Source: Rhodovulum tesquicola
GTDB taxonomy: Bacteria; Pseudomonadota; Alphaproteobacteria; Rhodobacterales; Rhodobacteraceae
Assembly: GCF_024128855.1 (NCBI RefSeq)
Contig: NZ_JAMYDV010000002.1
Location: forward strand, 248,001 to 312,000
Direction: 5' to 3'
Length of the DNA stretch: 64,000 nucleotides
Shown here: positions 33,533 through 37,470 of the stretch, one piece after another
How positions within the stretch are numbered: the first letter of the stretch is position 1
Layout of the letters: each line of letters begins with the position of its first letter
Position numbers and translations under genes: made by a program
The notes under the pieces: generated by a model
What the model was told of the DNA's origin: nothing
Seen by the model: the letters and a program-made list of their open reading frames with translations, nothing else
Database searches by the model: none

Positions 33533-35350
33533 TCACTCCCTCTCGGACCACCAGATATCGGGGAGAAAACCGATCCAATCCCCGTATATCGGTATCGTTT
33601 CCGGATAGCGCAGCGTGGCGCGGTGGGCAATCAGCGAACTGGGCGCATACCAGACCGGGATCACATGCCGCCCGGTCGTCAGAACCCGGTCAAGCGCGCG
33701 GGTCGCCGCGACGAATTCCTCATGCGTTTCCGATGTCAGCAGCGCCTCGATCATCGCCTCGGCGGCGGGGCTGGCCAGCCCCATCCAGTTGCGCGTGCCG
33801 GGCCGCGTGACCCCCTCCGCCCCCCAGTAAAGCCGCTGTTCGTTGCCGGGCGACAGCGACAGCCCGACCGCGTAGAACGCCATGTCGAAATCATAGGCAT
33901 CGGTGCGTTCGGTATATTGCGCGTTGTCAACCGTGCTGATGCGCACCGCAATGCCCAGCCGCTTCAGCCCCTCGGCCAAGATGTCGACGATCTTCTGGCT
34001 CTCGGCCGCGCCCTGGCGCAAGAGGATCTCGAAGGTGAAGGGCCGGCCGTCGGCATCGCGCAGCACCCCGTCATCGCCCACGCGCCAGCCCGCCTCCTCC
34101 AGCCGGGCAAAGGCCATGCGCAGGTTCTGCCGGTTCGAGGGCCGCCCGTCCGAGACGGGCAGCGCATAGCCCTCGAGCGCGCCGGGCAGCAGCTCGTCGG
34201 CAAAGGGCGCCAGCAACGCGCGCACGCGGCCCTCGGCGGGGCCCGGTCCCATGCCAAGCTCGGAATTCGAGAAATAGGACGCGATGCGCGGCTGGGTGCC
34301 GCCGGTCAGCACGCCATTGATGAACTCGAAATCGAAGGCATGCAGCATCGCGTCGCGCACCCGCCAGTCGGCAAAGACCGGGCGGCGGCCATTCATCACC
34401 AGCCCGCTGATGCCGGTGGGGCGGGCATGCGGGATCTCGGATTTCACGATCCGCCCCGTGGCGATGGCGGGGAAGTCATAGGCGCTTTGCCAGCGCGCCG
34501 CGCTCGATTCGCGATAGATGTCGACCGCGCCGCCCCGGAACGCCTCGAACAGCACGCCCGCATCGGCGTAGAACTCGATACGGATCTCGTCGAAATTGTG
34601 CTGGCCCCGGTTCAGCGCCAGATCGCGCCCCCACCAGTCGGGGTTCCGGCGCAACAGGACGAACCGGCCCGGCTCGAACCCCGCGATGACATAGGGCCCG
34701 GACCCGATCGGCGCCTCCAGCCCGCTTTGCGCGAAATCGCGCCCCTCCCATTGCGCCTTTTTCAGCACCGGGCGCAGGCCCAGGATCAGCGGCAATTCGC
34801 GGTCGGCGGTGGTAAAGGTGAAGCGCAGGCTGCGCGGTCCCGTCGCCTCGGCCGTCGCGACCTTTTCCCAGGCGCTGCGGTAGCGCGGGTGGCCCTGTTC
34901 GCCCAGCACCCTGAACGACCACAGCACATCCTCGACCGTGACCGGGCTGCCATCCGAGAAGCGCGCGCCTTCGCGCAGGGTGAACTCGACCCAGTCGCGG
35001 GCCTCTCCGGTCTCGACCGATTCGGCCAGAAGCCCGTAAAGCGTGAAGGGTTCGTCCCAGGACCGGCCCATCAGGGTCTCGTAGCCGAGGCTGCGCAGCG
35101 CCCAGGGGGCGTTGCCCTTCAGGATGAACGGATTGAGGCTGTCAAAGCCGCCCAGTTCGCCCAGCACGATGCGCCCGCCCCGGGGCGCATCTGGGTTCAC
35201 ATAGGGCAGCGACACAAAATCCGGTGCCAGCGCGGGCTGGCCATACATAGCGATGCCATGGGCGGGTTCGGCCTGCCCGAATCCGGCTGCGCCAAGCAGC
35301 ATCGCCGCAGCCACCGCGAGCGGCGCGCGGAGGGGATTCTTCTGTCTCAT
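33533..35350 (-). CDS. ABC transporter substrate-binding protein, family 5 (YejA-like)
   Basis: A 605-aa periplasmic binding protein with a signal peptide (PLAVAAAMLLGAAGFGQA). The mature start HGIAMYGQPALAPDFVSLPYVNPDAPRGG and GGFDSLNPFILKG are typical of the YejA/microcin-C-type oligopeptide binding proteins. LREGARFSDGSPVTVEDVLWSF is a family 5 signature. No permease or ATPase genes follow: the next gene is the entericidin-like lipoprotein. It is either an orphan binding protein or works with a transporter encoded elsewhere. A promoter matching consensus at -35 lies 43-71 bp upstream. Confidence 0.92.
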   Translation of the reverse strand: MRQKNPLRAPLAVAAAMLLGAAGFGQAEPAHGIAMYGQPALAPDFVSLPYVNPDAPRGGRIVLGELGGFDSLNPFILKGNAPWALRSLGYETLMGRSWDEPFTLYGLLAESVETGEARDWVEFTLREGARFSDGSPVTVEDVLWSFRVLGEQGHPRYRSAWEKVATAEATGPRSLRFTFTTADRELPLILGLRPVLKKAQWEGRDFAQSGLEAPIGSGPYVIAGFEPGRFVLLRRNPDWWGRDLALNRGQHNFDEIRIEFYADAGVLFEAFRGGAVDIYRESSAARWQSAYDFPAIATGRIVKSEIPHARPTGISGLVMNGRRPVFADWRVRDAMLHAFDFEFINGVLTGGTQPRIASYFSNSELGMGPGPAEGRVRALLAPFADELLPGALEGYALPVSDGRPSNRQNLRMAFARLEEAGWRVGDDGVLRDADGRPFTFEILLRQGAAESQKIVDILAEGLKRLGIAVRISTVDNAQYTERTDAYDFDMAFYAVGLSLSPGNEQRLYWGAEGVTRPGTRNWMGLASPAAEAMIEALLTSETHEEFVAATRALDRVLTTGRHVIPVWYAPSSLIAHRATLRYPETIPIYGDWIGFLPDIWWSERE

Positions 35351-35392: not shown

Positions 35393-35421
35393 AGCTTAGG
35401 GATGAGCGCCCGATTTTTCAA
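35393..35421 (-). promoter_or_regulatory. Predicted promoter of the solute-binding protein operon
   Basis: On the minus strand there is a -35 TTGAAA (35421-35416, 5/6), a 17-bp spacer and a weak -10 TAAGCT (35398-35393, 3/6). Its -35 lies 9 bp from the -35 of the divergent small-RNA promoter, so a regulator bound between them could act on both. Confidence 0.5.
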
Positions 35422-35430
35422 ACTTTTAGC

Positions 35431-35459
35431 TTGGCCGCCGGCGGGGGATTGCGTATACA
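35431..35459 (+). promoter_or_regulatory. Predicted promoter of an intergenic small RNA
   Basis: -35 TTGGCC (35431-35436), a spacer of exactly 17 bp and -10 TATACA (35454-35459), each 4/6 to the sigma-70 consensus. The predicted start is near 35466. It faces a strong terminator 50 bp downstream, with no gene in between. Confidence 0.6.
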
Positions 35460-35465
35460 GAGGTT

Positions 35466-35542
35466 ACTGCTCGATAGGTTTCTTGCCTGTATGAAACCTG
35501 CCTCAATAACTTGACGCCCGCCCTGTGCGGGCGTCTTTTTTT
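35466..35542 (+). ncRNA. Candidate ~77-nt small RNA, unnamed
   Basis: A transcript from the predicted start to the T-run would have two hairpins. Hairpin 1 is AGGTTTC (35476-35482)/GAAACCT (35493-35499) with a 10-nt loop TTGCCTGTAT. A single-stranded linker (GCCTCAATAACTT) follows, then a textbook terminator hairpin ending in seven T. This layout is typical of Hfq-dependent small RNAs. No start codon with an open frame of useful length lies inside. I do not recognise a known family. The alternative is a leader attenuator for bdhA, which starts 91 bp after the terminator. Confidence 0.6.
35513..35542 (+). terminator. Rho-independent terminator (plus strand)
   Basis: A perfect 9-bp GC-rich stem GACGCCCGC/GCGGGCGTC with loop CCTGT, followed directly by TTTTTTT. 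There is no T-run on the opposite side, so it works only on plus-strand transcripts. No plus-strand gene lies upstream for more than 4 kb, which is why a small RNA is inferred. Confidence 0.92.
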
Positions 35543-35632: not shown

Positions 35633-36406
35633 ATGACGCTTTCCGGAAAGACCGCCATCGTGACCGGCTCGAACTCGGGCATCGGGCTTGGCATCGCACA
35701 GGAACTGGCCCGAGCGGGTGCGAATGTGGTGCTGAACTCGTTCACCGACCGCGCAGAGGATCATGCGCTGGCCGCCGACATGGCGCAGGAGCATGGGGTC
35801 CGGGTGCGCTACATCAAGGCCGATCTGTCCAGCGCCGACGCCTGCCGCGGGCTGATCGCCGAGGCAGGCGCCTGCGATATCCTGGTGAACAATGCCGGGA
35901 TCCAGCATGTCGCGCCGGTGGATCAGTTCCCGGTCGAGAAATGGGACGCGATCATCGCGATCAACCTGTCCTCCGCGTTCCACACCACGGCTGCCGCGCT
36001 GCCGATGATGCGCGCGGCGGGCTGGGGGCGGATCGTCAACATCGCCTCGGCGCATGGGCTGACGGCCAGCCCCTACAAATCCGCCTATGTCGCGGCCAAG
36101 CATGGGGTGGTCGGGCTGACCAAGACCGTCGCGCTGGAAACCGCCGAGGAAGCGATCACCTGCAACGCGATCTGCCCGGGCTATGTGCTGACCCCGCTGG
36201 TCGAGGCGCAGATCCCCGACCAGATGAAGGCGCATGGCATGGACCGCGAGACCGTGATCCGCGAGGTGATGCTGGCGCGCCAGCCCTCCAGGCAGTTCGC
36301 CACGGTCGAGCAACTCGGGGGGACGACGGTCTTCCTGTGTTCCGAGGCGGCGGCCCAGATCACCGGCACGACCATCAGCGTCGATGGCGGCTGGACCGCG
36401 CTGTGA
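35633..36406 (+). CDS. bdhA: D-3-hydroxybutyrate dehydrogenase
   Basis: A 257-aa short-chain dehydrogenase that oxidises 3-hydroxybutyrate to acetoacetate with NAD+, used in breakdown of polyhydroxybutyrate. It has the cofactor motif TGSNSGIGLGI, NNAGIQHVAPV, the catalytic Ser/Tyr/Lys in IASAHGLTASPYKSAYVAAKHG, and the C-terminal GGWTAL. The segment FHTTAAALPMM and the overall pattern match bacterial BdhA. Start ATG 35633 is preceded by GAGGG. The next gene starts 4 bp after its stop. Confidence 0.93.
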   Translation: MTLSGKTAIVTGSNSGIGLGIAQELARAGANVVLNSFTDRAEDHALAADMAQEHGVRVRYIKADLSSADACRGLIAEAGACDILVNNAGIQHVAPVDQFPVEKWDAIIAINLSSAFHTTAAALPMMRAAGWGRIVNIASAHGLTASPYKSAYVAAKHGVVGLTKTVALETAEEAITCNAICPGYVLTPLVEAQIPDQMKAHGMDRETVIREVMLARQPSRQFATVEQLGGTTVFLCSEAAAQITGTTISVDGGWTAL

Positions 36407-36410
36407 ACGG

Positions 36411-37470
36411 ATGCCCGGGCCAGCGGCCATGACGCCCCTGCGCATCAATCTGGCCTTGCAGGGCGGGGGCGCGCATGGCGCCTTTACCTGGGGCGTGCTG
36501 GACCGGCTGCTGGATGAACCCGGGATCGAGATCGCGGCAATCTCGGGCAGTTCGGCGGGCGCGCTGAACGGGGCGGCGCTGAAGGCCGGCCTGGTGGCGG
36601 GCGGGCCGCAAGCGGCGCGCGAGAATCTCGACTGGCTCTGGACGCAGGTCGGCGCGGTGGGCGATCTGCGGCTGACGCATTGGATGGCGGCCTTTACCCC
36701 CGGCGCGGGCACCGTGGCGCGGATGCTGGACGCAGCAATTCCCTGGTCGCTGGGCGACATGGCCAGCCGCATGGTCGGCCCCTATGCCTATGGCCCGTTC
36801 TACCGCAACCCGCTGCGCCGGATCGTCGAGCGGTTCGACTTCGATCGCGTCTGCGCTGCCCGGCCGCCCGCCCGCCTTCTTCGTCGGGGCGACCAATGTG
36901 CGCACCGGCAAGATCCGGGTCTTCGAGGGCCGCGCGATCACCACCGACGCGATCCTTGCCTCGGCCTGCCTGCCCACGCTGTTCCAGGCGGTCGAGGTGA
37001 CCGACCCCGAGACGGGCGAGACGGATGCCTATTGGGATGGCGGCTATACCGGCAATCCGGCGCTGTTTCCCTTTCTCGCGCCCGATCTGCCCGGCGATGT
37101 CGTCGTGGTCTCGATCAACCCGCTGGAACGCGCCAGGGTGCCGGTCACGGGGCAGGAGATCCAGAACCGGATCAACGAGATCAGCTTCAACGCCTCGCTT
37201 CTGGGCGAGCTGCGCGCGATCCAGCAGGTGCGTGACCTGATCGACCAGGGGCGGCTGGAACGCGGCACGATGAAGGAGATCCGCATCCACATGGTATCGG
37301 ACGACGCGCTGATGCGGCAGTTGAACGTGGCGACCAAGCTGGTGCCCAGCCCGCTTGTGCTGGACGAGTTGAAGCGTGCGGGCCGCGCGGCGGCGGACCG
37401 ATTCCTGGCCGAGGCCGGGCCGCGGATCGGGCAGGAAAGCAGCGTCGATCTGCACCGGCTTTGCGACTGA
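36411..37470 (+). pseudogene. Patatin-like phospholipase, frame-broken by a 4-bp repeat unit
   Basis: The first part (to about 36870) encodes NLALQGGGAHGAFTWGVLDRLL and the nucleophile elbow ISGSSAGALNGAAL. The second part, in the +1 frame, continues with FFVGATNVRTGKIRVFEG and the catalytic Asp region YWDGGYTGNPALFPF, ending at 37470. Together they make a normal ~350-aa patatin. The break lies at CCCG CCCG (36867-36874). Removing one CCCG unit gives a continuous VCAARPPAFFVGATN reading. It is therefore a recent mutation, a phase-variable-like site, or an assembly error. Starts at 36411 or 36429 are both possible. It is probably in one transcript with bdhA; patatins can act as lipid or polyhydroxyalkanoate esterases. 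Confidence 0.85.

Follow-up and report, generated by a model that had tools for sequence, protein, structure and literature searches.

Within the window, i.e., the whole stretch of 64,000 nucleotides of Rhodovulum tesquicola DNA that was analysed, lies a predicted small RNA of 77 nt which is very probably, at roughly 0.93, an orthologue of the R. sphaeroides RNA known as StsR, acting in trans on the mraZ (dcw) leader. This assignment rests upon target and anatomy, with StsR (RSs0827) compared by way of its published description. An original prediction had described the RNA as a candidate novel one, a description which does not survive, as anatomy, size, and above all its pairing, in two parts, with the mraZ (dcw) leader point to StsR. 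From sequence comparison, that is, the small RNA gene appears not to be new, with its pairing with the dcw leader visible in most of the relatives examined.

Anatomy of the small RNA

The features of the locus, in coordinates of the window, are these:

33533-35350, minus strand: gene for a family 5 extracellular solute-binding protein (SBP_bac_5; Pfam PF00496, 4.2e-64), the divergent neighbour
35418-35429, no strand assigned: upstream element TCAAACTTTTAG, overlapping the proposed -35 region of the divergent solute-binding-protein promoter
35430-35436, plus strand: -35 element CTTGGCC (TTGGCC being 35431-35436), read from the sequence
35454-35459, plus strand: -10 element TATACA, following a 17-nt spacer after the -35 element, read from the sequence
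35466-35542, plus strand: predicted StsR-type small RNA, 77 nt from its start A to the end of the T run
35466-35473, plus strand: 5' single-stranded segment ACTGCTCG, with predicted partner GCGAGCAG (site 2 of the dcw leader)
35476-35499, plus strand: hairpin 1, a 7-bp stem of AGGTTTC (35476-35482) and GAAACCT (35493-35499)
35483-35492, plus strand: loop of hairpin 1, TTGCCTGTAT, 10 nt, read from the sequence
35483-35501, plus strand: loop plus 3' stem arm, the main pairing segment (RNA nt 18/19-36), with predicted partner AGGTTTCATACAGGC (site 1 of the dcw leader)
35500-35504, plus strand: GCCTC, invariant in the 39-sequence alignment and predicted to pair with GAGGC where site 1 has slid
35513-35542, plus strand: intrinsic terminator, a 9-bp stem (35513-35535) and then seven T (35536-35542)
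35633-36406, plus strand: bdhA, 3-hydroxybutyrate dehydrogenase (NCBIfam TIGR01963, over its cut-off)

Direct reading of the sequence bears out the positions that had been proposed for promoter, start, hairpin, and terminator. The predicted fold of the RNA, at -27.7 kcal/mol (z -5.5), is equalled by none of 200 shuffles. A consensus promoter scan returned no promoter-like sites above its cut-off and a terminator scan returned two terminator-like sites versus 1.8 expected, that is, neither rises above chance, and the case for the small RNA therefore rests on comparison.

Immediately upstream of the -35 element, the columns of TCAAACTTTTAG hold the consensus base in 68-92% of 168 distinct loci, a set that comes in part from pattern-chosen loci among the matches listed, and the element is absent from some divergent loci. 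By eye, CAAACTTTTAGCTTG (35419-35433) forms an imperfect palindrome that overlaps the small RNA's -35 box and which could be an operator common to the small RNA and the solute-binding gene.

Conservation and range

It is conservation that settles the reality of this small RNA, which as a matter of comparative sequence is confirmed. A 121-bp query finds a match at E<=0.01 in 289 of 295 family genomes, with the match in divergent genomes narrowing to a segment that has 35466, the predicted start, at its beginning, and with compensatory changes found at seven of the eight modelled pairs of the terminator stem. Together these support what had been proposed, i.e., a free-standing RNA of about 77 nt possessing its own promoter and terminator. 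Conservation of hairpin and promoter, upon which the original prediction likewise depended, is seen as well: hairpin 1 is nearly invariant (one broken cell in the alignment), and of 60 fetched whole-genome loci, consisting of the 30 best plus 30 weak matches, 58 keep TTG at -35 and 51 keep TAT at -12 to -10. The first 40 nt of the small RNA are identical in 53 of those same loci.

A table of columns, from 168 distinct sequences, displays near-invariance from +1 to +40 and a drop thereafter. As 114 of its 174 rows were picked, among the matches listed, by an exact 32-nt pattern spanning +8 to +39, the table is not used as a measure of conservation inside that span. The boundary at +1 and the fall after +40 are outside of the search pattern, however, and hence are informative.

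The six family genomes lacking a match at that threshold are 71-92% complete, and each gives one to five weaker matches, the best of them at E 0.04 or above. Five of the six nonetheless have an mraZ locus, its leader having both sites good in two genomes (G133, G166), one good in another two (G236, G155), and a partial site in the fifth (G033). As pairing sites thus are kept in leaders of unmatched genomes, gaps in assemblies may explain part of these misses.

A covariance model built from relatives had been proposed as a check. Such a model, R1, was built from 39 loci (alignment A1), and it matches 196 of 196 order-level genomes, with a best E of 2.5e-20 or better in each. Those 196 all are either the source genome or of the same family, many being also among the 295, so the sample is silent on other families of the order. 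Across 289 class-level genomes, R1 exceeds 100 bits only in the four of the same family, and 28 of the 285 non-family genomes pass at E<=0.01 with scores of 22-30.5 bits. Sixteen loci from those 28 genomes (L291-L306) were considered as possible outside-family relatives and rejected, as they share mainly the terminator or nothing clear, with core identities of 22-27 of 47 bases, or 32 of 47 in one. This last locus, L306 (G599), which scores 24 bits with R1 and has an AT-rich context, is probably a chance match.

Within Paracoccus the small RNA is found on four plasmid records, all >1.4 Mb, the size of a chromosome, from P. versutus, P. ferrooxidans, and P. pantotrophus, with no annotated features around the matches in the two regions examined. 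A search of phage records for the small RNA gave no match.

Relationship to neighbouring genes

Of 60 whole-genome loci, 58 retain the divergent solute-binding gene, as do, among the matches listed, 104 of 110 loci on genome contigs with enough sequence. On the other side, bdhA is found on the same strand as the small RNA, starting 90 nt past the terminator, i.e., after the T run, rather than the 91 originally given; the companion figure of 9 bp between the divergent -35 boxes does hold. From that arrangement could come a cis-acting leader or attenuator, in which the promoter, under some condition, would read through the terminator into bdhA. The principle of a read-through leader is known in the family, from UpsM of R. 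sphaeroides, and most loci have a bdhA-like gene on that strand no more than 800 nt downstream, namely 33 of 57 whole-genome loci and, among the matches listed, 69 of 91 on genome contigs.

The position nevertheless is not conserved, contrary to what the proposal of a leader attenuator for bdhA would entail. The gene is absent there or further off in 24 of the 57 loci (three of these having a bdhA-like gene further downstream in the fetched stretch) and in 22 of the 91 among the matches listed, and the distance from small RNA start to bdhA-like ATG ranges, again among the matches listed, between 123 and 607 nt. The first 40 nt are identical in 21 of the 24 whole-genome loci without nearby bdhA, which argues that the small RNA is independent of bdhA; in the 22 genome-contig loci from the matches listed, such identity is largely forced by the search pattern. 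Regulation of bdhA in cis by the small RNA is thus probably not occurring, and a read-through leader is very improbable as an account of this locus.

Downstream of bdhA is a patatin-like gene (36432-37470, plus strand) which appears split over two frames, with its N-terminal part in one and the remainder in an open reading frame at 36784-37470. That gene looks to be frameshifted, or else affected by a sequencing error.

Likeness to StsR

According to PMC8307010, StsR of R. sphaeroides, formerly RSs0827, is an Hfq-bound RNA of 72 nt, under the control of RpoHI/RpoHII, which is named for its binding of the leader-derived RNA UpsM, and which promotes RNase E cleavage of UpsM by opening a double-stranded region. 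In R. sphaeroides, StsR is known to restrain cell-division genes under stress. UpsM, which is the target of the small RNA rather than the small RNA itself, is described in PMC5089854 and PMC6238624 as 206 nt long, starting 268 nt upstream of mraZ and cut to a 130-nt 3' product, with long, terminator-bearing mraZ leaders reported there as specific to Rhodobacteraceae.

The RNA considered here resembles StsR in size class (72 nt published versus 77 predicted), in being an orphan RNA with its own promoter and terminator (here by sequence and conservation), in its pairing with the mraZ/dcw leader UpsM (here as predicted pairing and conserved sites), and in belonging to the family with the reported long, terminator-bearing mraZ leaders. 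As to range, R1 is strong among the 289 class-level genomes only in the four of the same family, and long mraZ leaders with a terminator are the reported hallmark of that family. As for rpoE, the mRNA of which, just after its start codon, is the second published StsR target, pairing near the rpoE start did not rise above shuffles in the four genomes considered, for which start codons are uncertain. Searching the literature with the stem-loop stretch, in DNA or RNA letters, found no paper, and neighbouring RSs locus numbers, as a route to RSs0827, gave no useful match.

By length, a possible counterpart is 'intergenic 134' of P. denitrificans (84 nt), which PMC5107571 places in a gene context shared with a putative R. 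sphaeroides sRNA. By our reading of the numbering it is on chromosome 2, and in Paracoccus the small RNA is on chromosome-sized plasmids. The similarity to Rhizobiales and Actinobacteria that is indicated in the same paper, however, misfits the narrow range found here.

The machinery associated with StsR is found in part in the source genome, that is, Hfq is encoded, as is one RpoH-type factor scoring over the curated cut-off, with a second, at 272 bits, below that cut-off. A third and weak match to the RpoH profile, of 142 bits, we take to be the housekeeping factor. For RpoH promoters, TTG is reported in PMC10673084 and PMC3441632 as essential, A at -12 as important, and T at -9 as critical for RpoHI. 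Aligned on C-37 and TTG, the promoter of the small RNA has the A at -12 but a C at -9. It fits RpoH-type and ordinary promoters alike and thus does not discriminate between them.

Predicted pairing with the mraZ leader

Pairing between StsR and UpsM is reportedly described in an NAR study of 2021. Target prediction, which had been suggested as a check, was carried out here against mraZ leaders, and duplex prediction indicates a two-part, co-linear pairing in 27 of 28 of them (the exception being L206), those 28 consisting of 30 fetched loci minus two in which the motif missed mraZ. In the common duplex, RNA nt ~19-36 pair with AGGTTTCATACAGGC and nt 1-8 with GCGAGCAG, or in either case with a variant thereof, the order of the two being antiparallel. 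Among 100 shuffled RNAs, from zero to three equal the mraZ-leader duplex.

A larger set of 57 leaders was picked by hand from both close and divergent genomes, five of them without a detected small RNA, and was tested with the leader's own RNA in 27 instances and a standard RNA in 30. In 44 of these 57 the best ungapped helix is better than all controls, for which up to six other stretches from that locus, the antisense strand, and 20 shuffled RNAs were used. The 13 failures are associated with contig ends or leaders outside of the fixed window, with gapped helices, and, for some (G029, G083, G014), with no explanation. Both sites, at >=13/15 and >=7/8, are found in 32 of 57 mraZ loci versus none of 57 base-shuffled loci. 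Exact copies of both occur in 19 of the 57, with site 1 exact in 22 and site 2 exact in 33. In the source genome, the 15-nt site has just two places at <=1 mismatch, one opposite the gene of the small RNA and one in the dcw leader. The counterpart of UpsM there lies on contig C13, ~200 nt upstream of mraZ, and possesses both pairing sites.

Site 1 can also be displaced. In four genomes with a slid site 1 (G263, G182, G124, G265) the best predicted helix uses RNA nt 26-42. The mraZ leaders of the three unexplained genomes (L227 of G083, L224 of G029, and L230 of G014) lack a convincing pairing site, although all three genomes have the small RNA, which is diverged in G029 and almost unaltered in the other two.

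A paired change may be noted separately. In G102 (L231 and L055) the RNA has UAGGA versus the usual UAUGA, and the leader has UCCUA versus the usual UCAUA. This is one instance of covariation in trans, a single event within a gapped helix that fails the ungapped test.

Proposed mechanism

The StsR-type small RNA would be transcribed from its own promoter and would end at its own terminator, with transcription in stress and stationary phase by way of RpoHI/RpoHII as published for R. sphaeroides. Pairing probably would start between its 10-nt loop and ATACAGGC of the mraZ (dcw) leader and would extend from there into the RNA's own stem, so as to take in RNA nt 19-36, with nt 1-8, at the unpaired 5' end, binding GCGAGCAG ~51 nt further on, an ordering of steps that we infer. 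The two helices would thereby bracket that stretch of the leader, UpsM, which by extrapolation from R. sphaeroides is cut by RNase E, such that pairing would lead to cleavage of the leader and, in turn, to less dcw message. Induction, Hfq binding, cleavage, and the effect on dcw all are carried over, by analogy, from the R. sphaeroides papers.

With the RNase E cut placed from the published sizes of UpsM (206 nt and its 130-nt 3' product), 31 of the 57 leaders entered the comparison, 26 of them with a pattern-found terminator, and in 25 of those 26 the extrapolated cut falls between both sites. The exception, L213, has a misplaced terminator. Such placement fits with the leader being clamped on both flanks of the cut. 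Published for StsR, in contrast, is the opening of a double-stranded region, and this is not seen here with a simple constrained fold: when both sites are held unpaired the stretch between them is not opened (mean unpaired 0.47 to 0.49), with the unpaired fraction higher in 18 of 31 leaders.

Other candidate identities

Less probable even than the read-through leader is membership of the alphaproteobacterial aR8/MmgR family of trans-acting RNAs, which would tie the small RNA to polyhydroxybutyrate storage and thereby to bdhA. MmgR (RF00519) is among the best sub-threshold Rfam matches, at the right coordinates (E 0.25; E 0.007), its length class, two hairpins, alphaproteobacterial origin, and terminator are shared, and hydroxybutyrate metabolism is represented by a neighbouring gene. 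The match reaches 23.6 bits versus a gathering score of 41, however, and the sequence between the hairpins mismatches the UUUcCUCCCU of the model, i.e., the conserved linker segment of MmgR is absent. No Rfam gathering score in fact was reached in 10 loci (the R. tesquicola locus plus nine relatives), and automatic annotation as a consequence probably misses this small RNA. Permissive Rfam searching yielded leu and trp leaders, BjrC1505, mmgR, and others, all sub-threshold and aligned largely via the terminator, and these were rejected.

Least probable of all is a small messenger RNA for a seven-residue peptide, MKPASIT, starting in the hairpin, as while an ATG at 35491 opens a frame of seven codons closed by a stop (35491-35514, plus strand) and the peptide is identical in 24 of 60 loci, another 24 of 60 lack an in-frame stop within 10 codons, ATGAAACC is absent from four of 60, and strong conservation ends before the stop codon.

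Possible further partners and significance

StsR remains the preferred identity. It is possible, though we hold this tentatively, that the dcw leader is not all that keeps StsR from changing, and that one or more undescribed partners, whether RNA or protein, are essential to it across the family. Conservation of the first 40 nt of the small RNA (identical in 53 of 60) seems to exceed that of leader site 1 (exact in 22 of 57), which hints at such partners; as the genome samples overlap but differ, and a 15-nt site is being compared with a 40-nt stretch, this comparison is indicative only. Those 40 nt are near-invariant also in some lineages with a slid or unrecognisable leader site, and they include the 5' stem arm, which in predicted duplexes is mostly paired only within the RNA.

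In several lineages, then, the site appears to have slid and yet the predicted pairing has been kept, and the link between stress and division that this pairing would represent should be testable in marine as well as soil relatives.
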